Assembly: GCA_016180645.1 (NCBI GenBank)
Contig: JACPAV010000042.1
Coordinates: 1-27,167, forward strand
Length of the DNA stretch: 27,167 bases
Reading direction: 5' to 3'
Source of the DNA: Nitrospirota bacterium
Lineage (GTDB): Bacteria > JACPQY01
Each line of letters begins with the position of its first letter. Position 1 is the first letter of the stretch. The notes beneath the pieces are model-generated. The model ran no database searches. It was not told the DNA's origin and worked only from the letters and a program-made list of their open reading frames with translations. The translations under genes were made by a program, and so were the position numbers. Shown in pieces: positions 6,879 to 25,668 of this stretch.

Positions 6879-7805
6879 GTGAAAGTCACTGCGGCTATTG
6901 AGGAGTTCCTGGACTACGTCCAAGTCGAGCGTGGTCTGAGCGCCACCACCCTGAAGAACTACCGCCGCTGGCTGGAGCATTTACAACTATGGCTCAAGCA
7001 GAAGGGTCCGGGTGATATCGAAATCAAGGATCTGAGGAGTGATGTCATCTGGAAGTACCGGCTCTATCTCGCCGGTCGGCCGAGGGCCAACAAGCCGGGA
7101 GCCTTGTCGCGCACAAGCCAAAGGTACTTCTTGATTGCTTTGCGCACAATGCTTCGATACCTGACCAAACGCGGCGTCGCGGTGTTGGGTCCGGAGCAGA
7201 TCGATCTTCCCAAACCGGCACCGAGGCAGATCAAGTTCCTGGATGATCGCTCCGTAGAGCGATTGCTTGCTGCTCCCAAGGTCGAGACGCGGCAGGGACT
7301 GCGAGACCGTGCGCTTTGTGAGGTGATGTTTTCCACGGGACTTCGGGTGTCCGAACTGTCCGGATTGGATCGAGACCGGGTGAATGTGAGCGACGGTGAA
7401 TTCTCGGTAACCGGGAAAGGCGGCCGGACGCGGGTGGTATTTCTATCGGAAGAGGCTCGTCAATGGCTCACGAAATACCTGAAGGCGCGGAAAGACGATG
7501 GGAAGGCTCTTTTCGTAACCGCCAGGGGAAAGCCCGGATCTCGCCGATGGGCGAAGCGGTTATCGATCCGGGCCATCCAGGACCTCATCAAGCATTATTG
7601 CCGGTTGGCGGGAATCACTCTGCCCGCCAGTCCTCACACGCTCAGGCACAGTTTCGCAACGGATCTTCTGAGCCACGGTGCCGATTTGAGGTCGGTGCAG
7701 GAACTGTTGGGCCACAAGAACGTGGCGACGACGCAGATCTACACCCATCTGACGAATCCGCAGTTGCGCGACGTTCACCGGCGATTCCATCGCGGCGGGC
7801 GGTAG
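6879..7805 (+). CDS. Tyrosine recombinase, XerC/XerD-like
   Basis: A 308-aa site-specific recombinase that cuts and rejoins DNA through a 3'-phosphotyrosine. The N-terminal SAM-like core-binding domain (about 1-95) starts AAIEEFLDYVQVERGLSATTL. The catalytic domain has all expected residues: Arg156 (TGLRVSEL), Lys180 (GKGG), His253-x-x-Arg256 (HTLRHSFA), His279 (LLGHKN) and nucleophile Tyr288 (TQIYTHL). GTG 6879 follows a purine-rich GGAGCGAAGG. Length and motifs fit Xer proteins, but its position behind a PadR gene rather than in a housekeeping context suggests an accessory recombinase. A 48-bp direct repeat and a small inverted repeat lie just downstream and could be substrates. Its target is not known. 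Confidence 0.92.
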   Translation: MKVTAAIEEFLDYVQVERGLSATTLKNYRRWLEHLQLWLKQKGPGDIEIKDLRSDVIWKYRLYLAGRPRANKPGALSRTSQRYFLIALRTMLRYLTKRGVAVLGPEQIDLPKPAPRQIKFLDDRSVERLLAAPKVETRQGLRDRALCEVMFSTGLRVSELSGLDRDRVNVSDGEFSVTGKGGRTRVVFLSEEARQWLTKYLKARKDDGKALFVTARGKPGSRRWAKRLSIRAIQDLIKHYCRLAGITLPASPHTLRHSFATDLLSHGADLRSVQELLGHKNVATTQIYTHLTNPQLRDVHRRFHRGGR

Positions 7806-7816
7806 CCGGAAAATAA

Positions 7817-7835
7817 GTCAATATTCAAGATTGAC
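7817..7835. repeat. Inverted repeat downstream of the recombinase gene
   Basis: GTCAAT-N7-ATTGAC, 12 nt after the recombinase stop. Possible recombinase core site or transcript-end hairpin; it lacks the 11-bp arms of a canonical dif site. Confidence 0.35.
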
Positions 7836-7889
7836 CCCCTGCCCTATTCGCTCAGTATAGCACGCCCCGACCGGCCGAAAGTTTCCCAC

Positions 7890-7937
7890 GGAAGGCCGAG
7901 GACGGGAACGGGGGTGAGGCGGTTGATGGTCGGGCCG
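7890..7937 (-). pseudogene. 48-bp remnant of an RCC1-gene 3' end
   Basis: This stretch matches 8213-8260, the last codons of the giant lipoprotein gene, at 44 of 48 positions. On the minus strand it still reads PTINRLTPVPVLGLP, like TTITRLTPVPVVGLP of the intact gene, but the stop codon position is TGG. With the copy at 8213-8260 it makes an imperfect direct repeat flanking the two micro-ORFs. It is either a relic of a lost paralogue or of a cassette insertion. Confidence 0.7.
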
Positions 7938-7939
7938 GC

Positions 7940-8023
7940 TTATGCCCGCTTCTTGGTTGGGATCAGGGCGATCACGCCCAAGATGAGCGTGACGAGAGAC
8001 ATGAAAACGAGTGCTTTTACCAT
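7940..8023 (-). CDS. 27-aa single-span membrane miniprotein
   Basis: ATG 8023 immediately follows the TAG of the 61-aa ORF (TAGATG), and the frame ends at TAA 7940. The product, MVKALVFMSLVTLILGVIAL plus IPTKKRA, is one hydrophobic helix with a positively charged C-terminal tail, a credible membrane miniprotein. No Shine-Dalgarno of its own, so translation would depend on re-initiation. Such short frames can arise by chance; the tight junction and clear helix support it only moderately. Confidence 0.4.
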   Translation of the reverse strand: MVKALVFMSLVTLILGVIALIPTKKRA

Positions 8024-8209
8024 CTAGTCATCGCCGCCTTTTCTCCAGAAGTACCAACTGATCACGAAGAGAAGTATAACATTCACGAGTCCCACCGGCA
8101 AGAACCACCATTTCCATTGTGGATTGGAGGCGAATCCGAAGATGAAAACTGCGAAGGCAACGGCGATCAGAGTCAGACAAAGCTTTGAGACCTCGCGGAA
8201 CCATTTCAT
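8024..8209 (-). CDS. 61-aa two-span membrane protein
   Basis: Its ATG overlaps the stop codon of the giant lipoprotein gene (TAATG at 8207-8211), a typical translational coupling. The product has two hydrophobic helices, about residues 9-27 (KLCLTLIAVAFAVFIFGFA) and 35-53 (WFLPVGLVNVILLFVISWY), and a charged tail WRKGGDD. No family recognised. It probably sits in the inner membrane and is co-expressed with the lipoprotein. The next micro-ORF follows directly. Confidence 0.55.
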   Translation of the reverse strand: MKWFREVSKLCLTLIAVAFAVFIFGFASNPQWKWWFLPVGLVNVILLFVISWYFWRKGGDD

Positions 8210-11200
8210 TACGGCAGGCCGACGACGGGAACGGGGGTGAGGCGGGTGATGGTCGTGCCGTCGCCAATTTGTCCTCTATAGTTCCACCCCCAGCATCGCG
8301 CGGTGCCATCGGCCACCACAGCGCAGGAGTGCCGTCCACCCGCGACCAACCCAACCGAATTGGACATATTCGAAACCTGCACCGGTGTGCTCTTGCCAGC
8401 CGTGGTTCCATCACCGAGTTGCCCGTTGCTGTTGTCTCCCCAGCACTTGACAGTGCCGTCCGCGAGCAACGCGCAGTTATGATCATGGTGCCCTATGACG
8501 GCAACCGCGGCAGTGAGACTTGAGACAACGGTGGGCAAAGTTTTCCCGAGACCGCTGCCATCACCCAGCTTGCCTGCCGTGTTCTGCCCCCAGCACTTCA
8601 CGATACCGGTTGATAGAATGGAGCAGGTGTGCTGGTAGCTGGCGCTGATTCCCACCACGGCGGAAAGGCTTGCAACCGGGATTGGCGTGAGCCGTTGGAT
8701 GGTCGTCCCGTCTCCGAGTTGTCCATTTACGTTCCAACCCCAACACATGACCGTGCCATCCGATTTGAGCCCGCAGGTGTGAGTATCTCCCGCAGAAATG
8801 CCAACCAGTCCAGAGAGGGACGGCACGGCTGCAGGAGTCTTCTTGGTCGTCAGGGTCCCGTCACCAATTTGCCCATAGTTATTCGCCCCCCAGCACTTCG
8901 CGGTGCCATCGGAGATGACCGCGCAGACGTGACCCGAAACGATAGTTTCGTCTCCTCCACAGTCCATGGCGATGACGCCGGTTAGCGTGGATACTGCGGC
9001 CGGCGAGTACCGATTTGTCGTTGTTCCATCGCCAAGCTGTCCATTGTTGTTCTCGCCCCAACATCGTACCGTTCCATCAGACCCGAGCGCGCACGAATAG
9101 TACGCGCCACCGCAAATCGCCGTTGATGACGAAAGGGAGCTTACTTGGACAGGCGTTGATCTGTTGCTGGTCGTGCCGTCTCCGAGCTGTCCGTCGGAAT
9201 TCCCGCCCCAGCATTTTGCCGTCCCGTCCGAGAGAAGCGCACAGACATGGCCTTCTCCCTCGGCCAGGCCAAGTCTCCACGGGCGGCCCGGGCCGCCGCG
9301 GCCGGAGGAGGATTCGTGGAGGCGTGGGAGTTTCACGCCGAGGGGACCGCTGAGGTTGGTGACGGCGACCGGCACCATGGTTTCGTTTGTTGTACCGTCT
9401 CCGAGAAGCCCGACGGTGTTGTTTCCCCAGCACCTTGCTGTCCCATCTGAAAGAACAGTACATGCGTGAACGTCCCCTGCCGCGAGAGCGACGGCGCCGC
9501 TTAGGTTGGAGACCACCACCGGCGTACTCCTGTCTATTGTCGTCGCATCGCCAAGCTGACCAACATTGTTTTTGCCCCAACATTTCACAGTCCCATTTGA
9601 AAGGATAGAACAAGTAAAGGCACTGCCAGCCCAAATGTCTACCGCACCCGTTAGAGAGGATACGGGCACCGGTGTGATCTTGTCCACAGTCGTTCCGTCG
9701 CCCAATTGGCCATATGCGTTGTATCCCCAGCATTTCACGGTACCGTCCAAGATCAAGGAACAGGTGTATTGACTACCCCCCGCAATGGTGACAGCGCCGG
9801 TTAGACTCAACACGGCTACGGGCGTATTCCTATCTACTGTCGTTCCATCGCCCAACTGGCCAAGGTTGTTGAACCCCCAGCATTTCGCTGTGCCGTTCGA
9901 GATAAGGGAACAAGCGTGGGCGTCTCCCCCCGTGACTGCGACGCCGCCAGACAACGTGGAAACGGCGACTGGTGTGGGTCTAGACGAGCCTAAGGAGTAC
10001 AACGACGTTCCGTCGCCAATTTGGCCGGTGAAATTGTATCCCCAGCATTTGACAGTACCGTCTGAAAGAAGCGCGCAGCTATGATTGCCCCCCCCCGCGA
10101 CTGCCACGGCGCCGGATAGGCTGGACACGACTGCGGGCGTCGGCTTATCCGCCGTCGTGCCATCCCCGAGTTGGCCGGCACCGTTGGATCCCCAGCATTT
10201 TACCGAGCCGTCCGACATTAGGCCACAGGTGTGGTGGATCCCTGCCGCAACGGCGATCGCACCGGACAGGGTGGACACAGCTAGCGGCATGTTTCTATCC
10301 AGCGTCGTACCGTCGCCTAATTGGCCATAGTCGTTCCAGCCCCAGCATTTGACGGTTCCGTCGGCGGCCAGCACGCAGGTGTGATCGCTACCTGCCGTGA
10401 CGGCCTGGATGTTTCCACCGGTTGGGCCGCCACCACCGGAAGTTGTCGCGTTCGCTTCGTTGGAGAAGGCGGAGTTGTTGGCGCCGGTATAGGCGTAGAC
10501 GCGGTAGAAGTATTGGGTGGAGGGGGTGAGGCCGGCGATGCTCATGGTAATTACGTTGGCGGAGGCGGGCCCAAGGTACGCGTACGATCCCCCTGCCCCG
10601 ATTTTCTGGTCGACCTTGAAGCCGTCTTCGTTGGCGGAGTTGTCGGTCCAGCTCAGGTTGATCTGAGTGGACGAGACGGCAGTCGCGGTCAATCCGCTCG
10701 GCGCGGCGGGCGTGCAGACGCCGCCCTCGTCCGTGCTCCCGTCGCAGTTGTTGTCGATTCCGTCGCAGATTTCGATTCCTGGATTACCCACCGTGGCCGA
10801 GCATTGAGTCGCCGTCCCATCGGCTTTGCACACGAAGGTCCCGGAAGACTGACACGCCCCCTGCCCTGCGGTGCAGGCTTGCCCCTTGTTGACGAAGTCC
10901 TCATCGCTCGAAGCGTCGCAGTCGTTGTCGAGGTTGTCGCAAAGTTCAGCGCTAGGCGCCAGGCTCGAGGCGCAAACAAGAGAACCACTTGTGCAGGTTT
11001 GCGTGCCTGCCGCGCAAACGCCGGGCTGGGCCGTTGTGCAGCTTCCGCCGCCACTCACCCCATTGTCGATCGTTCCGTTGCAGTCATTGTCCAGCCCGTC
11101 GCAGAGTTCCGATGTCGGGAGGATTTCTCCGGTGCAGGTGCCCCAGAGGCCGCCGGAGCAGGTCTGGGAGCCGGTTTTGCAGGCACCGATCGTGTTCGTC

Positions 11201-14200
11201 CCGCTGGGACCGCTGTAACAGACTTGGGTGGTCCCATTCGTGCATTGACAGATCTCGTCGATCTTCCCGTTGCAGTCGTTGTCGATCCCGTCGCCGCAGA
11301 CCTCGCTCGTCTGGGCCAGAGTTTGCACGCACACCAGAAGCCCCGACTGGCACTGTTGAGTCCCGCCCGAACAGATGCCGGTCTTAGTCGTGGAGCAGAA
11401 GGACCCGCCCGTATTCTCGTCCACCTTTCCATCGCAGTTGTTGTCGAGGCCGTCGCACATTTCGGCGCCAGGCGCCAGGCTCGAGGCGCAAGCAAGAATT
11501 CCGGCGGAGCATTTCATCGTGCCGGCGGCGCACACGCCAAGGGCGGTAGTCGAGCAGGAGGAGCCGCCGAGCCCGTCGTCCACCTTCCCGTCGCAGTTGT
11601 TGTCGAGGTTGTCGCAGATTTCCACGTTCCCGGGGAACTTGGCCTTGTTGGCGTCGTCGCAGTCACCGGGCTTCGCGACGGCCACGTACCCGGCGGTCGG
11701 AGCGCAACCTTGAACAAATCCACCGTCCGTGTAGCCATCGCCGTCCGCGTCCTTGTAGCTGATGGCGCTTTGAGGAACGTCGTCCACCTTTCCGTTGCAG
11801 TCGTTGTCGGCCCCGTCGCAGACTTCAGTTCCTTTGGGAAAGGCTTTCGCGTTGGCATCGTCGCAATCGACTCCCGCCACGAATCCATCGCCGTCCTTGT
11901 CCTCGCCCACCTGGATCTCCGCCGTGGCCGTGCCGCTCCCTTTCTTGGGATCTTCAACCACGACGCTCAGGTTGTACTTGCCGCTCTCGGAAGGCGCCGT
12001 CCATTCCGCCTGGGGATCATCGCCTTTGTAGCTCGTCGGCGCCTTCTTCTTTCCGGGATTCTCTTTCACCTTTTCCAACTTTCCACCGGATGCGACCCAC
12101 GCGTAGCTCAGCTTGTCCCCGTCCGGATCAGAAGCCGTCACGCTCACCACGAGGCTCTCTCCCGGCGATGCGATCTTCTTGGGGATGGAAAGCTCTCCCA
12201 CGGTGGGTGGGCTGTTGATGTCGATCGATTTGTCGACTACGACGCAGGCCCCGCAGGCCGCCGCCCCGCCCGTCTCGACCTCCTCATCCGCTTCCACGTC
12301 CGATCCGCCGCCGCCCTTTGCGCTGATGCTGTGTTTCACTTTGACTTTCACTTTCTGTTTCGTCGGCGCGATCACGCAATACTTCCCGTTCGCATCCGTG
12401 GCCACCATCTGGCTCCCCACGCGCACCGAGGCGCCGTTGACCGCCTTCCCCTTCTGATCGGTGATCGTGCCGCTCACGCAGGAGTCTCCAACCTCCATGA
12501 CAATGTCGGCGAGAACGCACTTGGTCTGTCCTCCGCCGCAGTTGCCGCCGCCCACGATCTTCACCTTCTGCGATTTCTTATGATTCTTGCTCTTCCCGCG
12601 ATCGTAGTAGTTGAAGTTGAGGTCCACTTCCGCCGGCGCCGTCTCGAGACAGTAATTCCCGCCCTGATCGCTGGCGGCGTACGATGAGCCGGCCATGACG
12701 GAGGTGTTCTTGAGCAGGTTCCCGGCGTCATCCTCGATCTTGCCCCGCACACAGCCGACGTCGGCCTTTTTCACCTCGACGACTCCGATCTCCACCGGTG
12801 GGGCCGACACGCACTCACCCGGCCCGGGCGTAAAGCCCGGCACGGCGATCGTCTGCTTCGCGGGGGCAAATTTGAGGTAGGACTGGGGGTAGTACGCCGC
12901 CATGGGATTCTGCGATATCGTGAGATCGACGGCGTCCGCCGCCGCGAGCGCCAGGCTGAACGCGCCCTTGTCGTCCGTCGTGGCAGAGGTTCCACCGCCA
13001 TTGACGACCGCGCCCGCCACCCCCTTGCCACCGGATTCCTGGACTTTCCCGCGCACTTCCCGGAGTTTTGGCGGCGCGATGAGGATATCGCCCACGTCCG
13101 TGCACGCCTCCGACGGCGTCACGCACGTGGAAGCCGTGTCGGGCGCCGTCACGTCCTTCCGGGCCAGGATCTCCTTCATCTTGATCGTGCCCCAGCTCGG
13201 GTTGTCCACCCCCTGCCCGGCCTGGATCTCCAGGGTACCGTTTCGCATGACATCCAGACAGAACTTTCCGTCATCGCCCGTCGGGAGGATCTTCTTGTTT
13301 GACCATCCGTAGGTGCCGTTGCAAAAAGCCGAGGGGTAACTCTTTCCTTGCGAACAGACGTGGAGGTTCTTGACCGCCTCCCCGCACGCGTCCACGATTC
13401 GGCCGCGCACGCAGTGATGGGTATCGACAGCCTGGTCCACGTTCCACCACGAGAAGTGCTTCGCCTTGAATTGCATGAACTGGACGCCGCTGTCCTCCAC
13501 CACGGAGGCCACGACCGGATTCCCCGCCTCGTCCAGCTCGGGGACCCACGTCCCGAGCGCCTCGTCGATGTACCAGACTTCGATGGAGTCGCCGATCACA
13601 TACGGCGCGCCGGTCTTGGGATTGAGGGACCCGGTGGGAATTTTGAGCTTCACGTCCGCGGGGCTGTTGAGCTTCGGGATGGCGTTGCCTGCTTCATCGC
13701 GAAGCGTGATGTTCGCGTACACCACCGAAGCGAGTTCGACCGATTCGCCCACGGTCTCGCCATTCGCCCGCTTCACTGCCCGTTTCGATGCGCCGCGGAC
13801 GCCCCCGCGCACCCCGCCCCGAACGCCTTGGACGGCCACGAAGCCTCCGGGGAATTCGCTGGACGCTTCCCGCGGGTTGCCGACGACCACTTCCGCCTTA
13901 ACGGGACCGCTGGTCCCCAACGCGGCGGCGGCATTCGGGATCTGGACGGAAATCGAATTGTCCGGCGCTTTCAGCTCGGCCGTGCCGGATTCGGAAATGG
14001 CCAGGGACTGAACAAATTGGACCGGCTGAACCGAAAGCGGAACTTGTTTCGTTCCCGCCGCCAGCTCCATCACCTGCGCTTGAGGGGCGTAACCGGCCAT
14101 GTCCGCCACGACGGAGACGTTGCCCGAGGGCGACTCGACGGCGAAGTTCCCCTGCCCGTCCGTCGTGGCCGAAGCGATCTTGGTCGGGTCGTCGATGGAC

Positions 14201-14439
14201 GTGACGCGAATGCTGGCACCCGCGAGAGGGGATTTGGATTCCGAGTCGGAAAGCTGGCCGACCAGTTGGGTGGTGCCCTTGGCAGCCGAAGATGCCTCCG
14301 ACGCACCGCCGGACAGCTTTTTCCCCATGATCCGGCCTCCCTTGGATTCGCAAGAAGAGAGGCTGATGAGCAGAGCGGCAGCCAAGAGAATTGTGATAGC
14401 AGAAGCCAAGCTAAGCGGGCTCCTCCCCCGAGGATTCAT
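8209..14439 (-). CDS. Giant lipoprotein A: carboxypeptidase-like, MopE, FN3 and 14 RCC1 motifs
   Basis: A 2076-aa exported protein. ATG 14439 gives a lipoprotein signal MNPRGRSPLSLASAITILLA.. with lipobox ending Cys30; the frame upstream to 14517 holds the promoter and is not coding. Order (approximate residues): carboxypeptidase-regulatory-like fold 55-130; GVRGG tract about 201-216; cys-containing carboxypeptidase-like modules 345-735; Ig/PKD-like 741-845; seven MopE-type motifs (CDGxDNxCDGxxDE) with cys-rich spacers 845-1250; FN3 1250-1335; RCC1 motifs 1340-2076. I count 14 CWG motifs, and a linker (LPRLHESSSGRGG..) separates motifs 7 and 8, so two seven-bladed propellers are likely. Each blade has two Cys (HTC..KCWG). 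Probably surface-exposed; ligand unknown. The stop overlaps the 61-aa gene. Confidence 0.9.
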   Translation of the reverse strand: MNPRGRSPLSLASAITILLAAALLISLSSCESKGGRIMGKKLSGGASEASSAAKGTTQLVGQLSDSESKSPLAGASIRVTSIDDPTKIASATTDGQGNFAVESPSGNVSVVADMAGYAPQAQVMELAAGTKQVPLSVQPVQFVQSLAISESGTAELKAPDNSISVQIPNAAAALGTSGPVKAEVVVGNPREASSEFPGGFVAVQGVRGGVRGGVRGASKRAVKRANGETVGESVELASVVYANITLRDEAGNAIPKLNSPADVKLKIPTGSLNPKTGAPYVIGDSIEVWYIDEALGTWVPELDEAGNPVVASVVEDSGVQFMQFKAKHFSWWNVDQAVDTHHCVRGRIVDACGEAVKNLHVCSQGKSYPSAFCNGTYGWSNKKILPTGDDGKFCLDVMRNGTLEIQAGQGVDNPSWGTIKMKEILARKDVTAPDTASTCVTPSEACTDVGDILIAPPKLREVRGKVQESGGKGVAGAVVNGGGTSATTDDKGAFSLALAAADAVDLTISQNPMAAYYPQSYLKFAPAKQTIAVPGFTPGPGECVSAPPVEIGVVEVKKADVGCVRGKIEDDAGNLLKNTSVMAGSSYAASDQGGNYCLETAPAEVDLNFNYYDRGKSKNHKKSQKVKIVGGGNCGGGQTKCVLADIVMEVGDSCVSGTITDQKGKAVNGASVRVGSQMVATDANGKYCVIAPTKQKVKVKVKHSISAKGGGGSDVEADEEVETGGAAACGACVVVDKSIDINSPPTVGELSIPKKIASPGESLVVSVTASDPDGDKLSYAWVASGGKLEKVKENPGKKKAPTSYKGDDPQAEWTAPSESGKYNLSVVVEDPKKGSGTATAEIQVGEDKDGDGFVAGVDCDDANAKAFPKGTEVCDGADNDCNGKVDDVPQSAISYKDADGDGYTDGGFVQGCAPTAGYVAVAKPGDCDDANKAKFPGNVEICDNLDNNCDGKVDDGLGGSSCSTTALGVCAAGTMKCSAGILACASSLAPGAEMCDGLDNNCDGKVDENTGGSFCSTTKTGICSGGTQQCQSGLLVCVQTLAQTSEVCGDGIDNDCNGKIDEICQCTNGTTQVCYSGPSGTNTIGACKTGSQTCSGGLWGTCTGEILPTSELCDGLDNDCNGTIDNGVSGGGSCTTAQPGVCAAGTQTCTSGSLVCASSLAPSAELCDNLDNDCDASSDEDFVNKGQACTAGQGACQSSGTFVCKADGTATQCSATVGNPGIEICDGIDNNCDGSTDEGGVCTPAAPSGLTATAVSSTQINLSWTDNSANEDGFKVDQKIGAGGSYAYLGPASANVITMSIAGLTPSTQYFYRVYAYTGANNSAFSNEANATTSGGGGPTGGNIQAVTAGSDHTCVLAADGTVKCWGWNDYGQLGDGTTLDRNMPLAVSTLSGAIAVAAGIHHTCGLMSDGSVKCWGSNGAGQLGDGTTADKPTPAVVSSLSGAVAVAGGGNHSCALLSDGTVKCWGYNFTGQIGDGTSLYSLGSSRPTPVAVSTLSGGVAVTGGDAHACSLISNGTAKCWGFNNLGQLGDGTTVDRNTPVAVLSLTGAVTIAGGSQYTCSLILDGTVKCWGYNAYGQLGDGTTVDKITPVPVSSLTGAVDIWAGSAFTCSILSNGTVKCWGKNNVGQLGDATTIDRSTPVVVSNLSGAVALAAGDVHACTVLSDGTARCWGNNTVGLLGDGTTNETMVPVAVTNLSGPLGVKLPRLHESSSGRGGPGRPWRLGLAEGEGHVCALLSDGTAKCWGGNSDGQLGDGTTSNRSTPVQVSSLSSSTAICGGAYYSCALGSDGTVRCWGENNNGQLGDGTTTNRYSPAAVSTLTGVIAMDCGGDETIVSGHVCAVISDGTAKCWGANNYGQIGDGTLTTKKTPAAVPSLSGLVGISAGDTHTCGLKSDGTVMCWGWNVNGQLGDGTTIQRLTPIPVASLSAVVGISASYQHTCSILSTGIVKCWGQNTAGKLGDGSGLGKTLPTVVSSLTAAVAVIGHHDHNCALLADGTVKCWGDNSNGQLGDGTTAGKSTPVQVSNMSNSVGLVAGGRHSCAVVADGTARCWGWNYRGQIGDGTTITRLTPVPVVGLP
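8213..8260. repeat. Partner copy of the 48-bp direct repeat
   Basis: Coding 3' end of giant lipoprotein A; matches 7890-7937 at 44 of 48 positions in the same orientation. The interval between the copies (7938-8212) holds just the two micro-ORFs. Confidence 0.8.
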
Positions 14440-14445
14440 GCCCGA

Positions 14446-14474
14446 ATTGTGAGGAAAATTGGTATCAATGTCAA
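14446..14474 (-). promoter_or_regulatory. Promoter of giant lipoprotein A (near leaderless)
   Basis: On the complement, TTGACA (14469-14474) and CACAAT (14446-14451) with a 17-nt spacer. The -10 ends 6 nt from the ATG, so transcription should begin at about the start codon. The spacing TTGACA-N29-ATG is identical in giant lipoprotein B. Confidence 0.65.
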
Positions 14475-14503
14475 GGCAGAAATCACGCCAGGGGCGCCAC
14501 TTG

Positions 14504-14517
14504 GTGACGGAGGTCAC
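14504..14517 (-). promoter_or_regulatory. CRP/FNR-like operator upstream of lipoprotein A
   Basis: GTGACCTCCGTCAC on the complement, that is TGTGA-N6-TCACC, close to the CRP-family consensus TGTGA-N6-TCACA. Its centre is about 71.5 bp upstream of the predicted transcription start, a classic class I activator position. Between site and -35 a 23-bp block (14480-14502) is conserved with lipoprotein B (21 of 23). Confidence 0.6.
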
Positions 14518-14575: not shown

Positions 14576-17500
14576 CTACGGAAGAAGAACCTGGACCGGT
14601 GTGTCTTTCCAGGCCATTCCGTCGCCGATCAATCCTGAGTTGTTGGATCCCCAGCAGGAAAGAGTGCCCGGCGATTGTACGCCGCAGGAATGGATTGACC
14701 CGACTGTGATCGAAGTCCAATTTGTGGCCGTGCCAACCTGCGTGGGGGCGAGTTTTTGTGTAATGGTTCCGTCGCCGAGCTGGCCGTACGAATTGATGCC
14801 CCAGCATGAAAGGCTTCCCGGCGATTGGATCCCGCAAGTGTGACTTGGGCCGGTGGTGATCGAAGTCCAGCTTGTCGCCGTGCCGACCTGGGTGGGGGTG
14901 AATCTTTGCGTCGTCGTTCCGTCACCGAGCTGACCCGATCCATTCTGGCCCCAGCACGAGAGGATGCCCGGCGATTGGACGCCGCAGGTGTGTGTGTAGC
15001 CGGTGGTGACCGAGGTCCAATTTGTGGCCGGCCCGACCTGCACGGGGGTGAGTTTCTGAATAGTCGTTCCGTCGCCGAGTTGGCCGTACGCATTGATGCC
15101 CCAGCACGAGAGTATGCCCGGCGATTGGACGCCGCAGGTATGGGTTGAGCCGGCTGTGGCCGAGGTCCAATTTGTGGCCGTCCCGACCTGTACGGGGGTG
15201 AGTCTTTGCGTAACAGACCCGTCGCCGAGTTGACCGTAAGCGTTCACTCCCCAGCACCAAAGGGATCCCGGTGATCGTATGCCGCAGGTGTAGCCTGAGC
15301 CCGTTGTGACCGCGGTCCAGTTCGTGGCCGTTCCGACCTGCACAGGGGTGAGTTGTTGCGTAACGGAGCCGTTGCCAAGCTGGCCGTAGCCGTTCAACCC
15401 CCAGCACCAGAGCGTACCGGTGGATTTGACGGCGCAGGTATGCAATGTCCCGGTCGAGATCGCAAGCCAGTCGGTATTGGAGCCCAGTTGAACTGGAGCC
15501 GCCCGGCTGGAGGTCGTCCCGTCGCCGAACTGTCCGTAGAGGTTTATCCCCCAGCACCACGCCGTTCCAGTGGCCCGCCGAGCGCAGGAATGGTAGTAGC
15601 TTGCCTGCGCCGTCGTCCAGTCTGAGGCGACTCCGACGGTGACAGGGATCTTGTAGTTCGGCAGGCTTCCGGACCCCGTTTGGCCCGAGGTGTTGTCTCC
15701 CCAACATTTCACCGAGCCATCCTGGAGTCGGGCGCACACGAACGAATCCCCCCCGCTCAATTCCACCACACCGGTCAGACCGATCACCGCAACGGGAGTG
15801 GACGATGCGACGGTCGAGCCGTTTCCCAATTGCCCGTTGGAATTGGATCCCCAGCATTTGACGGTTGAATCGGAGAGAAGGGCGCAGGAGTGACTATCCT
15901 CGGCCAGGACGGCGACCGCTGAGGATATTCCCGAGACGACGACGGGAGTGGTCCCGTATCCCGAACCCCAGCATTTCACGGCGCCATCCGCGAGAGCCGC
16001 ACAGGCGTGGAATCCTTCCGCGCTGACGCCGACGGCCGTGGAGATTCCAACCACGGCTACGGGCAAGTTGGACAGCGTGACGGAACTTCCATCGCCCAGT
16101 TGTCCCATGCCGTTGTCGCCCCAGCACTTAACGGTAGCGTCGGCCATCAGAGCGCAGTTCGAAGATTCATCGGTGGACAGGGTGACGACTCCCATCAGCC
16201 CGACGACACTGACCGGAGTGGTTGAATTCACGGTCGTGCCATCGCCGAGTTGCCCGTCATAGTTGGACCCCCAGCATCGAACGGTGGAATCGGCGAGGAC
16301 GGCACACTGATGGCTGGCTCCCCCGTCCACCGCTTTCGCACCCGTCAGGCCCGAGATGGTCGCAGGCGAGCCTGAGTTCGTCCAGCATTTCACAGAACCA
16401 TCCGACAAAACCGCGCAGTTGTTGGATGCGCCCGATCCGACGTTCTCGACGCCCACGAGGCCGCTCACTTGAACGGGTACGCCGCCGAAGGCGCCGCCCC
16501 AGCAGCGCACCGTCGTGTCGGCCATGATCGCGCACGTTTGACTCCAGCCCCCGTCCAGCCGTTTCTGAACGAAACCCGCAGGCGTGGTCCCTCCCGCTTC
16601 GTTGGAGTAGGCTGAGTTGTCCGCGCCGAGGAATGCAGCCACACGATAGGTGTACGTCGTCCCACCCGAGAGACCCATGCTGGAGTACGACATAATGTTT
16701 GGGCCGACCGTGGCAAGGGCTGCAAAGGCGCCGCCGCCGATTTTCTGCTCGACCACGAATCCCGCCTCGTTTGAAGCGTTGTCCGCCCAGCTCAGATTGA
16801 TCCGGGAGGACGAGACGATGACCGCCATGAGATTGCTCGGAGCGGCAGGGGCGCAGATGCCGCCTTCGTCCGTGCTGCCGTCACAGTCGTTGTCCATCCC
16901 ATCGCAAATTTCAGTAGCGGGAGCGCCGGGAATCGCCGAGCATTCCGTCCCGGTTCCATCAGCCTTGCAGGAGAAAGTCCCTGTCGACTGGCACGCCCCC
17001 TGCCCCGCCGAGCATGCCTGTCCCTTGTTGGTGAATTCCTCATCTGTGCTTCCATCGCAGTCGTTGTCGAGGTTGTCGCAGATGTCGGCACTGGGCGCGA
17101 GGCTTGAGGCGCAAGCCAGGCTTCCTGCCGTGCATTGCTGCGTGCCCGCGGAGCAGACTCCCGCCTGAGTCGAAGTGCAACTCGCAGCCCCCAGCCCGTT
17201 GTCCACCGCGGCGTCGCAATCGTTGTCCTTGCCGTCGCACGTCTCCAAAGCCGGCAGAACTTCTCCGGTACAGTTTCCCCAAATGCCTCCCGCACAGGTC
17301 TGCGTGCCCGCTTTGCAGGATCCTACGTTCCTCGTGCTTGCTGCGCCGCTGTAGCAGGACTGGCTGCTTCCATCGCTGCACTGGCAGACTTCATCGATCC
17401 TGCCGTTGCAATCGTTGTCGATCCCATCGCCGCACACCTCGGAGGTTTGCGCGAGGGTTTGAACACAGACCAGACTGCCCGACCGGCACTGCTGAGTCCC

Positions 17501-20365
17501 CCCCGCACACAGACCGCTCCGACCGGTGGCGCAGAGCGTTCCGCCTGTGTTTTCGTCCACCCTTCCGTTGCAATTGTTGTCCAGGCCGTCGCAAATCTCG
17601 GCGCCAGGCGCCAGGATCGAGGCGCAGGCAAGAATTCCGGCGGTGCACTTCATCGTGCCCGCAGCACAGACGCCAAGGGAGGTGCTCGCACAGGACGATC
17701 CGCCGATCCCTTCGTCCACGCTTCCATTACAGTTGTTGTCGACTCCATCACACGATTCCGTCGCTCCCGGATACACGGCCGGATTGGAATCATTGCAGTC
17801 GGTCCCTGCGGGCGATTTGTCCCCATCTGCATCGACGGCCACTTCGATGTCCACGGAGGCCATGCCGGTTCCTTTTCGATTGTCCTCGACTCTCACGCTT
17901 ACCGTGTACTTGCCGGATGACGACGGAGCTTTCCAGGCAACCGCCGGGTCGGGACCTTTCAGGCTGGAGGGAGCCCTTCTGCCGCCGCTCGAAGTAATCT
18001 TACTGAGATCACCATCCGTAGACGTCCAAAGGAACTGGAGCGGGTCCCCCTCGGCGTCCGACGCGGTGGCCGTGACCACCACCTCATCACCGGGTTGGGC
18101 CACTTTCTTTGAGGACTCCAGTTTGGAAACCACGGGCGGCTCGTTGATGGTCAGGGTGCGATTAACGATGGTGCATCCGCCTCCGCACATTCCCGCCGAT
18201 CCGGTCTCGACGTCCACCTCGTCTTCAGACTCGCTGCCGCTCGTTCCCTGCCCGCCCGAGGCATGCTTGAGCGTCACCTTTACTTTCTGTTTGACCGGCG
18301 CCATGAGGCAGTACGCGCCGTCCGGCCCGGTGGTGACCATGGTGGAGCCCGCGCGCACGGTTGCGCCCGCCACGCCCGCGCCTTTCTGGTTGGTGACGCG
18401 GCCGCTGATGCAGGCGTCGCCCAGTTCAACCTCGATGTCGGCATGAACGCACCGATCGGACTCTCCGCCGCACTGGCCGCCACCGACGATCTGCACGCCT
18501 GATTTCTTGTTGTGCATGCGGCCCCGGCCCTTGTCGTAATAAGTCAATTTCAAGTCCTGATCGCCCTCGAGCGAGGCCAGGCAGTAGTTGCCTCCCTCAT
18601 CGGATTGAATGGTCGAACCCCCTATGGAGACGGTCGCCCCGGAGATGGGCCGGCCGGCTTCATCGAGCAGTTTGCCTCGGGCGCACCCGGTCTCCGTGTC
18701 AAGCGCGACCGTGCCCAAATCGACAGCCGCGAGGGCATCACACTGGCCCGGCGAGGGACTGACGCCCGGAACGGAGATCTTGTTTTCTTTCCTGCCTCGA
18801 AGGGCGCCTTCCGGGTGCGTAATGCTGAGAAGCAGATCGTCGCCGGGCTCCGTTTCAACGCTGAACAGGCCATTGGCGTCCGCCTTGGCGAGCCGTTTTC
18901 CCAGGGAGACCACCGCTCCGGGAACGGGGACTGCGCCGGCACCAACCACCTTTCCGCTCACTTTTCGAAGCGTTGGAGTGATGGAAACGTCGCCCAGATC
19001 CTGACATGCAGCGCCTGCGTCGGCGCACGTACCCACGGTATTGGACATCGTGACATTCTGTTTCGTGAACGTCTCGGTGAACGAAAAGTTGAACCAGCCC
19101 CACTGGCCACCGACGCCGGTTTCCACGCTGATCGTGCTGCCTTTCAAAGCGTCCAAACAGAACTTCCCGTTTTCCCCCGTGGGCTCCTCTTTCTTGTCGA
19201 CTCCCCCACCGAACTGGAGCGCAGCGGTGCCCAACACGCCATTGCAGGTGGCCCCGTTGAAGGTCACGCCGTTCCCGCAGACACGAATATCTTTCTTGGG
19301 CTGCCCGCATGGATCGATCACCCGGCCGCGGACGCAGCTTCGGGTGGAGATAGGCTGATCGAGGTTCCACCAACTGAAGTGCCGCGCCATGAACTCACTG
19401 TAGAGCCCGTCATCCCCCTGGACGACGGTTCCCAGCACCTGTTGTCCACCGTCGTCCAACTCCGGTACCCACGTGCCGAGTGTTTCGTCCACGTAGTACG
19501 TTGGGACGGTGTCGCCAACCTTGAACGGCACACTCGTGGCCGGATTCATCGATCCGGTGGGGATTTTCATGCGAACCTTGGCAGGTTGCTTGAGGGAGCT
19601 GATGATGTTGCCCTCTGAGTCGCGCAAGGTAATATTGCCGAACATGATGCTGGCCAATTCGACCACTTCACCGATCGGCTCTCCCGCCTTGCGCACAACG
19701 GCGCGCTTGGACCCCGCGCGCAATCCGCCTCGGAGGCCGGCGCTCACGGCCATGAAGCCACCCGGGAATGCATCGCGGTCCTGGCGGGGATCGCCCACGG
19801 TAATTTCCGCGCGGATGGGTCCGGTCGCGCCGAGAGCTTTGGAAGGATCGGTGATTTCGATACTAAGGCTGTTGCCAGGCACTTTCACGGCAAGCGACTT
19901 TGTGTCCGCGTCGATCACGGTTTCCTGCATGAACGTTACGGGTTGGGCCCTCATCTGGACGGTGTTCGCGCCGGGGCTGAGTTGGAGCACTTGGGCCTGT
20001 GGAGCAAAGCCCTCCTTCTCTACGGAGATGGAGGCCGTCCCTTCGCCGCCGAGGGTCAGGCTGAACAAGCCCGTTCCATCCGTTGTCCCTTCTGCAAGCA
20101 CGGATGGATCCAGCACGGAGACGACCTTGACCTTTGCGCCGGCGATGGCTTCACCGGATTCCATGTTTAGCACCCGGCCCACGATATCCGAGCTCCGGAG
20201 GACTTCCGTCGTCTTGACCGCAGTCGCCCCGTTTCCGGTGAGGGTTGCCCCGAGAATACGACCTCCCTTGCCTTGGCAGGAAGTCATGCTCAGAATAAGC
20301 AGGAAGGCAAGGAACAGCGAAACCATGGACGCCAGACTCAGCGGATTCTTCCCCCGAGGATTCAT
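14576..20365 (-). CDS. Giant lipoprotein B: carboxypeptidase-like, MopE, FN3 and 14 RCC1 motifs
   Basis: A 1929-aa paralogue of lipoprotein A. ATG 20365 gives MNPRGKNPLSLASMVSLFLA.. and lipobox Cys30; the frame up to 20443 is promoter. Order (approximate residues): carboxypeptidase-regulatory-like 50-125; GLRGG tract 207-222; cys-containing carboxypeptidase-like modules to about 735; Ig/PKD-like 738-840; six MopE-type motifs 842-1172; FN3 1172-1265; RCC1 region 1268-1929. Fourteen CW(G/T) motifs: the first seven are of type VKCWG..GLTGVV, the last seven of type LSCWG..GTATNWTSITTG, so the repeat subtype changes exactly at the 7/8 boundary. Motifs 1, 2 and 5 are shortened. The MopE part is very similar at DNA level to that of A. 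Exported, probably surface-bound; role unknown. Confidence 0.9.
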   Translation of the reverse strand: MNPRGKNPLSLASMVSLFLAFLLILSMTSCQGKGGRILGATLTGNGATAVKTTEVLRSSDIVGRVLNMESGEAIAGAKVKVVSVLDPSVLAEGTTDGTGLFSLTLGGEGTASISVEKEGFAPQAQVLQLSPGANTVQMRAQPVTFMQETVIDADTKSLAVKVPGNSLSIEITDPSKALGATGPIRAEITVGDPRQDRDAFPGGFMAVSAGLRGGLRAGSKRAVVRKAGEPIGEVVELASIMFGNITLRDSEGNIISSLKQPAKVRMKIPTGSMNPATSVPFKVGDTVPTYYVDETLGTWVPELDDGGQQVLGTVVQGDDGLYSEFMARHFSWWNLDQPISTRSCVRGRVIDPCGQPKKDIRVCGNGVTFNGATCNGVLGTAALQFGGGVDKKEEPTGENGKFCLDALKGSTISVETGVGGQWGWFNFSFTETFTKQNVTMSNTVGTCADAGAACQDLGDVSITPTLRKVSGKVVGAGAVPVPGAVVSLGKRLAKADANGLFSVETEPGDDLLLSITHPEGALRGRKENKISVPGVSPSPGQCDALAAVDLGTVALDTETGCARGKLLDEAGRPISGATVSIGGSTIQSDEGGNYCLASLEGDQDLKLTYYDKGRGRMHNKKSGVQIVGGGQCGGESDRCVHADIEVELGDACISGRVTNQKGAGVAGATVRAGSTMVTTGPDGAYCLMAPVKQKVKVTLKHASGGQGTSGSESEDEVDVETGSAGMCGGGCTIVNRTLTINEPPVVSKLESSKKVAQPGDEVVVTATASDAEGDPLQFLWTSTDGDLSKITSSGGRRAPSSLKGPDPAVAWKAPSSSGKYTVSVRVEDNRKGTGMASVDIEVAVDADGDKSPAGTDCNDSNPAVYPGATESCDGVDNNCNGSVDEGIGGSSCASTSLGVCAAGTMKCTAGILACASILAPGAEICDGLDNNCNGRVDENTGGTLCATGRSGLCAGGTQQCRSGSLVCVQTLAQTSEVCGDGIDNDCNGRIDEVCQCSDGSSQSCYSGAASTRNVGSCKAGTQTCAGGIWGNCTGEVLPALETCDGKDNDCDAAVDNGLGAASCTSTQAGVCSAGTQQCTAGSLACASSLAPSADICDNLDNDCDGSTDEEFTNKGQACSAGQGACQSTGTFSCKADGTGTECSAIPGAPATEICDGMDNDCDGSTDEGGICAPAAPSNLMAVIVSSSRINLSWADNASNEAGFVVEQKIGGGAFAALATVGPNIMSYSSMGLSGGTTYTYRVAAFLGADNSAYSNEAGGTTPAGFVQKRLDGGWSQTCAIMADTTVRCWGGAFGGVPVQVSGLVGVENVGSGASNNCAVLSDGSVKCWTNSGSPATISGLTGAKAVDGGASHQCAVLADSTVRCWGSNYDGQLGDGTTVNSTTPVSVVGLMGVVTLSTDESSNCALMADATVKCWGDNGMGQLGDGSSVTLSNLPVAVVGISTAVGVSAEGFHACAALADGAVKCWGSGYGTTPVVVSGISSAVAVLAEDSHSCALLSDSTVKCWGSNSNGQLGNGSTVASSTPVAVIGLTGVVELSGGDSFVCARLQDGSVKCWGDNTSGQTGSGSLPNYKIPVTVGVASDWTTAQASYYHSCARRATGTAWCWGINLYGQFGDGTTSSRAAPVQLGSNTDWLAISTGTLHTCAVKSTGTLWCWGLNGYGQLGNGSVTQQLTPVQVGTATNWTAVTTGSGYTCGIRSPGSLWCWGVNAYGQLGDGSVTQRLTPVQVGTATNWTSATAGSTHTCGVQSPGILSCWGINAYGQLGDGTTIQKLTPVQVGPATNWTSVTTGYTHTCGVQSPGILSCWGQNGSGQLGDGTTTQRFTPTQVGTATSWTSITTGPSHTCGIQSPGSLSCWGINSYGQLGDGTITQKLAPTQVGTATNWTSITVGSIHSCGVQSPGTLSCWGSNNSGLIGDGMAWKDTPVQVLLP

Positions 20366-20371
20366 GTGCGC

Positions 20372-20400
20372 ATATTGAGGGATTCCATTTTTGTTGTCAA
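20372..20400 (-). promoter_or_regulatory. Promoter of giant lipoprotein B (near leaderless)
   Basis: On the complement, TTGACA (20395-20400) and CAATAT (20372-20377), spacer 17 nt, -10 ending 6 nt from the ATG. Same geometry as lipoprotein A. Confidence 0.65.
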
Positions 20401-20429
20401 GTTCAAAATCACGCCAGCGCCGCCACTTT

Positions 20430-20443
20430 GTGACCACTATCAC
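20430..20443 (-). promoter_or_regulatory. CRP/FNR-like operator upstream of lipoprotein B
   Basis: GTGATAGTGGTCAC on the complement, that is CGTGA-N6-TCACA. It is centred about 71.5 bp from the predicted start of transcription, exactly as in lipoprotein A. Confidence 0.6.
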
Positions 20444-23500: not shown

Positions 23501-25450
23501 TTCTATGGTCAGCTTGGGGATGGGACAACAGCCAATAAGACGACTCCGGTGGCCGTTTCCACCCTTTCGGGCGCCATCGCCGTGGCGGGAGGGATCAACC
23601 ACACCTGCGTGCTCGCCTCGAATGGCACGGTGAAATGCTGGGGATGGAACGCGAATGGTCAGCTTGGGGATGGGACGGTGGCAGACAAGACGACTCCGGT
23701 GGCCGTTTTCACCCTTTCGGGCGCGGTCGCCGTGGCGGGAGGGCTCTACCACACTTGCGCCCTCACCTCGGATGGATCGGTGAAATGCTGGGGATCCAAC
23801 GGCAACGGTCAGCTAGGGGATGGGACGACGGCCCAGAAGACGACTCCGGTGGCCGTTTCCACCCTTTCGGGTGCGGTCGCCGTGGCGGGAGGGACCTACC
23901 ACACCTGCGCCCTCGCCTCGGATGGCACCGTGAAATGCTGGGGACGCAATCTCTATGGTCAGCTTGGGGAAGGGACGACGGCGGATAAGACGACTCCGGT
24001 GGCCGTTTTCACCCTTTCGGGTGCGGTCGCCGTGGCGGGAGGGACTTATCACACCTGCGCCCTTGTCTCGGACGGCACGGTGAAATGCTGGGGAGGCAAC
24101 GGCGGTGGTCAGCTAGGGGATGGGACGACGGACCAGAGAACGACTCCCGTGGCCGTTTCCGCCCTTTCGGGTGCGGTCGCCGTGGCGGGAGGGAACGTCT
24201 ACACCTGCGCGCTCGTATCAGACGGGACCGTCAAGTGCTGGGGGGACAACTATTATGGCGGGCTTGGGGACGGAACCACCGCCAATCGCCTAACGCCCAC
24301 CGCCGTAACTTCACTGTCAGGCCCGCTCGGTGTCAGGCTCCCCCGCCTCCACGAATCCACCGCCTCCGGCGCGCCGGCTCGACCGTTCCGCGAGGGTCTC
24401 TCCGGCGGCGGCGTTCACACTTGCGCAATCATCTCCAACGGCACGGCCAAATGCTGGGGCCAGAATGATCAGGGCCAACTCGGCGATGGCACCACGACCA
24501 ACCGGCCCACACCTGTCCCCGTGTCGTCCCTTACGAGTGTCACAGGCATGGCCACCGGTCAATTCCACACCTGCGCTCTGGGCTCCGACGGGACCGCCAA
24601 GTGCTGGGGCGTAAATGGCAGCGGACAACTCGGCGACGGAACCAGCACCGGAAAGCTGCTGCCGACCGTCGTATCGACTCTGTCCAGCGCCATCAGTCTG
24701 AGCGCAGGGGCCAATCACACCTGCGCCTTGATGGCCGACGGCACAGCAAGGTGCTGGGGTGCAAACAGCGCCGGACAGGTGGGCGACACCACCGGGACCA
24801 ATCGCCTCGTGCCCACGACTGTAACTTCGCTTACCACAGCCGTAGCGCTCATTGCGGGCGGCTACCACAATTGCGGGCTCCTGGCAAACGGAACCGTGAA
24901 CTGCTGGGGGCGAGGGGCTGAAGGACAGACCGGAGACAATTCCGCGTCAACTCATTTCGCGCCGGCCGCCGTCTCCACCCTATCCGGAGTGGTAGCGCTG
25001 GCGATGGGAGACTACCACTCTTGCGGCCTCCTTTCAGACGGCACGGTCAGATGCTGGGGACGCAATTCTCTCGGTCAACTGGGCGACGGCACGACAACGG
25101 ATAGGCCCACTCCAATCGTCGTCTCAACGCTTACGGATGTGATTGCCACCGTCGCGGGTTCGGACCATACCTGCGCCCTGCTCTCCTCGGGACCGGTTCG
25201 TTGCTGGGGCGCCAATCAAGGGCAGCTCGGAGATGGGACCTCCATCGCGCGTGTCACACCTGTTTCGGTGGCGGGGATAACGGGGGTTGCAGGAATCACC
25301 GCGGGCGGTTCAGGCGGTGGATCAGGTCACTCGTGCGCCGTTCTTCCTGGCGGCACGGCCAAGTGCTGGGGACTCAACAATTCCGGCCAGCTCGGAGATG
25401 GAACGACCGGCAGCAAATCCACTCCAGTCTCCATCACGAGCCTCCCGTAG
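20540..25450 (+). CDS. Giant lipoprotein C: GVRGG tract, Ig-like repeats and 14 RCC1 motifs
   Basis: A 1636-aa exported protein. GTG 20540 directly after the promoter begins a signal peptide with lipobox VYGC (Cys34); the in-frame ATG at 20477 lies upstream of the promoter. Order (approximate residues): GVRGG-rich tract 86-115; calcium-type loop [15 protein letters not shown] about 233-248; one divergent Ig-like module; cys cluster [19 protein letters not shown] about 407-427; four Ig-like repeats (TxPDT..FQCxLD..CxSP..GNxDxTP) 430-803; FN3 803-903; 14 RCC1 motifs 910-1636. The linker [17 protein letters not shown] lies after motif 7, as in A. Motifs 1-6 are nearly identical 50-aa units, unlike 8-14. 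Ig repeats contain short DNA repeats and an in-frame REP-like element. It has no MopE or carboxypeptidase-like part. Likely surface-exposed; ligand unknown. Confidence 0.9.
21863..21895 (+). repeat. GGTCAGT-type short repeat inside coding sequence
   Basis: Reiterated AGTGGTCAGT units, read in frame as [12 protein letters not shown] related array lies at 22448-22478 and degenerate CAGCCGTCAGCGGTCAG arrays near 22139-22160 and 22713-22745. Each falls at the start of an Ig-like repeat of lipoprotein C. The unit resembles heptamer repeats usually found between genes. Confidence 0.7.
22195..22252. repeat. REP-like element inside lipoprotein C coding sequence
   Basis: Two hairpins (CGCACCC..GGGTGCG and CGCAGGC..GCCTGCG) are bounded by GGTAG and CTACC, matching the intergenic elements at 2711 and 6081. 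It is translated as [18 protein letters not shown] within the second Ig-like repeat, with no frameshift. Confidence 0.8.
23330..24229 (+). repeat. Six near-identical 150-bp tandem repeats encoding RCC1 blades 1-6
   Basis: The codon starting VKCWG recurs at 23330, 23480, 23630, 23780, 23930, 24080 and 24230, an exact 150-bp period. Units 1-6 share long identical stretches such as CGACTCCGGTGGCCGTTT, indicating recent amplification or conversion. Confidence 0.9.
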
Positions 25451-25580: not shown

Positions 25581-25668
25581 AAAGAGGTTTTTGGGCCAAC
25601 AGCGGTCACCCAGGCGGTCACCAGCCTGCCCTGATTTCCGCGCAAGTGGGCCACCATGCCATTGTGTG

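Follow-up and report, generated by a model that had tools for sequence, protein, structure and literature searches.

Stranded 3' ends behind RCC1-propeller lipoprotein genes in a Nitrospirota genome: a 48-bp direct repeat as a functional and a probable fossil gene end

The window analysed here, a stretch of 27,167 nucleotides, is contig C42 of the genome of a Nitrospirota bacterium (G000; 4.7 Mb in a fragmented assembly of 65 contigs, to which the C-numbers below refer). It contains two tandem lipoprotein genes, two very small reading frames enclosed by a direct repeat, and a convergent recombinase gene:

6879 to 7805, plus strand: Xer-type tyrosine recombinase, a convergent neighbour judged to lie outside the feature
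7887 to 7937, minus strand: repeat copy 2, a stranded RCC1 3' end, GPTINRLTPVPVLGLPW.., its stop lost
7940 to 8023, minus strand: micro-ORF2, 27 aa, with a single hydrophobic stretch
8024 to 8209, minus strand: micro-ORF1, 61 aa, with two hydrophobic stretches
8211 to 8260, minus strand: repeat copy 1, the functional 3' end of gene A, ...TTITRLTPVPVVGLP, comprising its last 16 codons and stop
8209 to 14517, minus strand: gene A, a lipoprotein of 2102 aa with C-terminal RCC1 propeller repeats (from ORF and Pfam)
14576 to 20443, minus strand: gene B, a tandem RCC1 lipoprotein and paralogue of gene A (from ORF)
25615 to 25634, plus strand: possible short stranded RCC1 3' end, VTSLP followed by a stop; tentative

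Gene A matches the Pfam families RCC1 (9e-110), MopE (5e-42), CarboxypepD_reg (2e-26) and fn3 (1e-9), and shares with gene B DNA blocks that are 71-74% identical (D14, D15). The start of micro-ORF1 overlaps the stop of gene A (TAATG) and micro-ORF2 starts directly behind the stop of micro-ORF1, which suggests that the pair is coupled to gene A in translation. Micro-ORF1 resembles the Pfam family DUF6722 (E 3.4e-4; 21.2 bits, under the gathering cut-off of 27), and the genome holds two DUF6722-like places only, both behind RCC1 ends; at C64:10890-11081 (L058) a DUF6722-like micro-ORF, seemingly frameshifted, sits behind a stranded RCC1 end. No family matched micro-ORF2, no homologue of micro-ORF1 was found outside its own genome among the 60 genomes searched, and neither micro-ORF shows a match above a curated cut-off or to a toxin, immunity or nuclease family. 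The tentative end at 25615 to 25634 lies 165 bp behind gene C, which ends at 25450; its best match is a gene end on C17 and it is weak, scoring 5.9 bits alone.

The initial annotation had reported a direct repeat matching at 44 of 48 positions, one copy of which was the functional 3' end of lipoprotein A, an interval holding just two tiny membrane ORFs, and a recombinase gene ending 84 bp away, all of which stands. The segments 7890-7937 and 8213-8260 match at 44/48, against a best 48-mer self-match of 30/48 in 300 dinucleotide shuffles of 7780-8340, and the alignment extends to 46/50 between 7888-7937 and 8211-8260 (family D16). Copy 1 is the end of gene A, whose TAA stop occupies 8209-8211; the interval contains the hydrophobic ORFs of 61 and 27 aa, both on the minus strand; and the recombinase gene ends at 7805, as compared with 7890 for the repeat.

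Copy 2 (7887-7937) translates to TINRLTPVPVLGLP in the frame corresponding to gene A. Its similarity to the gene end stops exactly at the former stop codon, where TAA has become TGG, and past either edge of both copies the flanks have zero similarity. It begins 2-3 nt past the stop of micro-ORF2, and is recognised at 25.5 bits by an nhmmer tail profile and at 39.8 bits in a genome-wide model scan. Three of the four sense-codon differences between the copies are non-synonymous, in addition to the lost stop, in what is a very short sequence. What marks copy 2 as a displaced 3' end is homology to a gene end that is kept in frame and bounded at the stop, without a gene body. Its best match is the end of gene A itself (score 42, the next being 28).

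The RCC1 lipoprotein genes of the gene A family number more than 20 in the genome and share a common end; stranded RCC1 3' ends number about 12. The latter were counted in selected regions and in a genome-wide model scan in which 150 of 4041 candidates were scored, so that the census may be incomplete; the tail profile was built from 20 RCC1 gene ends and recovers all gene ends. Besides copy 2, the stranded ends are:

C64:11084, C43:8587, C20:113301 and C63:8967: stranded RCC1 ends, from tail profile and model scan
C17:58315 and 58522, C57:10932 and C36:5467: stranded RCC1 ends, from tail profile and model scan
C15:56253 and 65428: weaker stranded RCC1 ends, from tail profile and model scan
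C15:104597: stranded RCC1 end without a neighbouring RCC1 gene, added by the genome-wide model scan

The stranded ends are about 20-180 bp long, and every stranded RCC1 piece found extends to the last positions of the model, that is, to the stop-codon end. In the selected regions and among the 150 of 4041 candidates scored there were no stranded internal repeats, as against some 300 internal repeat matches inside genes, and the same scans gave no comparable match on the opposite strand; the 3' bias of the stranded pieces argues against random pseudogene decay. Most of them sit just behind an intact family gene and are closer to other paralogues than to that gene, as expected for former residents, copy 2 of the window being the clear exception. 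On C42, C20 and C57 the stranded end begins at most about 20 nt past a stop codon, and C20:113301-113703 encloses a similar micro-ORF pair in like manner. A Smith-Waterman comparison of 372 ORF ends (696 kb), assessed by inspection with antisense artefact frames and complete tandem paralogues left out, yielded high-scoring displaced ends within 400 bp for RCC1 genes only.

Kelch propellers have left comparable remains. Behind an intact RCC1 gene on C43 come first a stranded end of the RCC1 type, then one of the Kelch type (SPTNEVYTPPLP and stop), and finally an aspartyl-protease-like gene; on C57 a Kelch-propeller family gene precedes a stranded RCC1 end; and on C23 a stranded Kelch end stands alone, with no Kelch gene to go with it, ahead of a protease gene. 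Displaced ends are stacked behind an intact gene on C43 and C17, and the window locus has one only. The RCC1 and Kelch ends have zero recognisable sequence in common, and a common recombination site therefore cannot explain the class of stranded ends.

Several further observations concern the surroundings of these ends. The modular lipoproteins form a large family whose C-terminal propellers (RCC1, Kelch, NHL-like) are interchangeable and whose genes are often arranged in tandem, e.g. at C15:45353-65396. Aspartyl-protease-like genes (DTG/DSG motif) lie directly behind propeller ends at C17:75196, C43:8882, C15:104670 and C23:5660; as a fixed partner the protease was rejected, since only 4 of its 11 copies in the genome follow propeller ends, intact or stranded. 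Three of the stranded RCC1 ends, C17:58315-58414, C20:113301-113389 and C15:104550-104640, contain a palindrome-like insertion of 20-35 bp, in each case immediately after CTCGGCGA(C/T). A palindrome-rich spacer that starts with ACCTGCGATCRGACGAG stands directly behind the RCC1 stop at C17:58135, C50:7400 and C63:9202 (L193-L195), with no further exact match in the genome; the tails of its three RCC1 genes differ. Motifs of the GGGGTCAAGTCTTGACTTG type are found near RCC1 ends in the window (7808-7842) and at C43:8640-8710 and C64:11150-11200, and are presumably of a kind also seen near REP-associated transposases.

The probable explanation is that RCC1-propeller lipoprotein genes account for both copies of the 48-bp repeat, one being a functional 3' end and the other a fossil one, a statement that covers two histories jointly, replacement of the gene end and loss of a tandem gene. 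An older RCC1 gene, or an older version of the propeller end of gene A, would have terminated at 7887; either the present 3' end of gene A was placed there together with the coupled micro-ORF pair, or a tandem copy was deleted, and the last 50 bp or so of the old gene would have been left behind as a non-functional displaced tail, likely older than the present end of gene A. On the genome scale, C-terminal RCC1 and Kelch modules would be replaced or lost while the old 3' ends remain downstream, a process for which the Xer recombinase would be unnecessary. Where replacement is involved, it may proceed by homology on the gene side and by illegitimate joining on the side of the old tail. That the interval might be the scar of a lost RCC1 gene had already been proposed in the initial annotation, and is supported by the preserved frame of copy 2 and by the dozen or so stranded RCC1 ends, together with Kelch ends, elsewhere in the genome. 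The RCC1 locus of gene A is absent from G001, the sole genome of the same family compared, and is missing from related genomes in general.

Between the two histories, replacement is slightly ahead. The alternative is that a third tandem RCC1 gene, following B and A, was deleted with only its final 50 bp surviving, and that gene A never had its end replaced; taken by itself this is possible rather than probable, and whatever likelihood it has is part of that given to the fossil explanation as a whole. Family genes are often tandem indeed (B and A, four consecutive ones on C15, two on C41), the stranded end at C15:56253 lies between two tandem genes, and the solo ends at C36, C15:104597 and C23, with no intact propeller gene ahead of them, fit plain deletion or loss better than replacement. 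Deletions of genes of about 5 kb, however, predict remnants of varied length, drawn from various parts of the gene, whereas the pieces found are all 3' ends, about 20-180 bp long, and the stop-proximal starts at C42, C20 and C57 are tighter than random deletion predicts and favour replacement.

An improbable third history is that the 3' end of gene A was duplicated locally and then diverged, the micro-ORFs being caught between the copies. It would fit the fact that copy 2 is clearly nearest to the end of gene A itself (42 vs 28), but the arrangement recurs at loci where the stranded end, Kelch ends included, matches other genes best, and the copies have sharp edges and share 50 bp only.

The other reading offered in the initial annotation, a cassette bounded by att-like repeats beside its recombinase, fared less well. 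By this account the interval and one repeat copy moved site-specifically, the RCC1 3' end serving as attachment site for the adjacent or another recombinase. The interval is compact, with little room beyond two ORFs, and resembles gene cassettes in its coupling to the upstream gene as well; C20 encloses a pair much like this one; and one and the same spacer follows the stops of three RCC1 genes directly. The recombinase itself points elsewhere. Its NCBIfam matches are PRK00283 (248.7 bits), XerD (246), XerC (235.5) and the integron integrase TIGR02249 (97), the XerC/XerD match falling under the curated cut-off (246 vs 329.6 bits) and the integron one likewise (97 vs 265 bits), and it is the top XerD match of the genome (245.7 bits, the next 157.9). 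The closest orthologue, 74% identical, is in a 'Nitrospirae' groundwater MAG of the sister genus (L093), where the order PadR-xer is kept without any RCC1 gene; further relatives, about 50% identical, are mostly from Patescibacteria. To judge by these matches, it is probably an ordinary housekeeping (chromosomal) Xer. As a partner of the cassette it was rejected, since G001 has the PadR-xer order without RCC1. In the repeat, a search for inverted Xer-like arms (11-bp arms with cores of 6-8 bp) found pairing not above that of shuffles, and reading its sequence revealed no GTTRRRY/RYYYAAC arm pair. On these grounds, namely the identity of the recombinase, the context of its orthologue, the missing arms, and stranded ends whose length ranges between about 20 and 180 bp and whose RCC1 and Kelch families are unrelated, the att or integron reading was rejected, and site-specific movement in any form is very improbable.

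An artefact of assembly or binning where a gene end is repetitive, conceivable in a genome of 65 contigs with a repetitive gene family, is hardly credible given that 4 of the 48 positions distinguish the copies, that unique sequence lies between them, and that elsewhere the stranded ends vary in their length, in the insertions that they carry and in their context.

If the fossil explanation holds, stranded 3' ends may be regarded as a record of the C-terminal modules that a surface-protein gene formerly carried. Where RCC1 and Kelch layers lie behind one gene, the replacement of modules in large propeller lipoproteins would be readable from a single genome, and one may ask whether ordinary recombination or a dedicated agent lies behind it. 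The locus also cautions that short direct repeats near a recombinase need not be att sites.

The relatives of the recombinase provide a parallel of their own. At L093:2819-4587 a 234-aa ORF comes after the xer gene and weakly matches HNH_repeat, a homing-endonuclease repeat (E 0.014); behind it lies a displaced xer 3' end that agrees with the resident end at 46 of 49 residues and at only 108 of 147 bases. The locus is thus laid out like a homing element of the 3'-end-replacing type, here in a gene of a bacterium. In Patescibacteria, an HNH ORF (7.6e-10) at L159:5478-7111 has a second recombinase on one side and a displaced xer 3' end on the other, and a degraded displaced xer end lies 2.4 kb behind xer at L120:9938-13419, with an ORF of uncertain type between them. 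These three are the clear cases among 79 xer loci. No literature joining homing endonucleases, XerC and tyrosine recombinases was found, and none of the seven papers containing both 'homing endonuclease' and 'XerD' deals with this subject, judged by title. It is conceivable, though doubtful, that an active 3'-end-replacing process swaps RCC1 and Kelch ends and brings in partner genes (the micro-ORF pair, the protease, a coiled-coil gene), as a bacterial counterpart of the WHO/FBA1 case described below, with xer genes of the sister genus and of two Patescibacteria showing the same anatomy tied to endonuclease-like ORFs.

Among known systems, a literature search found no paper joining RCC1 repeats with lipoprotein and recombination. 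Beta-propellers are described as large repetitive families with ongoing amplification from single blades (PMC9218822), and that account appears to be about the amplification of blades, not about stranded 3' ends behind genes. Integron cassettes (attC) are similar in having small ORFs between direct repeats with a tyrosine recombinase near; here, however, the recombinase is not of the integron type, the repeat is coding sequence without paired arms, and the tail families are two and unrelated. In contrast to an integrase-borne element, the recombinase, ending at 7805, lies outside both copies, which carry no recombinase arms.

The closest parallels concern displaced gene ends. In yeast, WHO elements give FBA1 a new 3' end and displace the old one downstream, with layers built up by repeated events; they carry an endonuclease gene between the new and the old end (PMC7282813). 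The xer genes with displaced 3' ends resemble them, as do the RCC1 layers on C43 and C17, whereas 7887-8260 holds only two membrane micro-ORFs (61 and 27 aa) and lacks an endonuclease. Rhs loci contain orphan rhs-CT modules, 3' parts that have been displaced (PMC3967940), and the likeness is in displaced 3' fragments of a large modular surface-protein gene lying downstream with small partner genes; yet orphan rhs-CT modules are whole toxin domains with immunity genes, while here the leftovers are of about 20-180 bp without a recognised toxin, the displaced piece in the window encoding about 15 residues of an RCC1 repeat. Having neither endonuclease nor toxin, the window feature is a member of neither system, yet by analogy it looks like the debris of events of the WHO or Rhs type.
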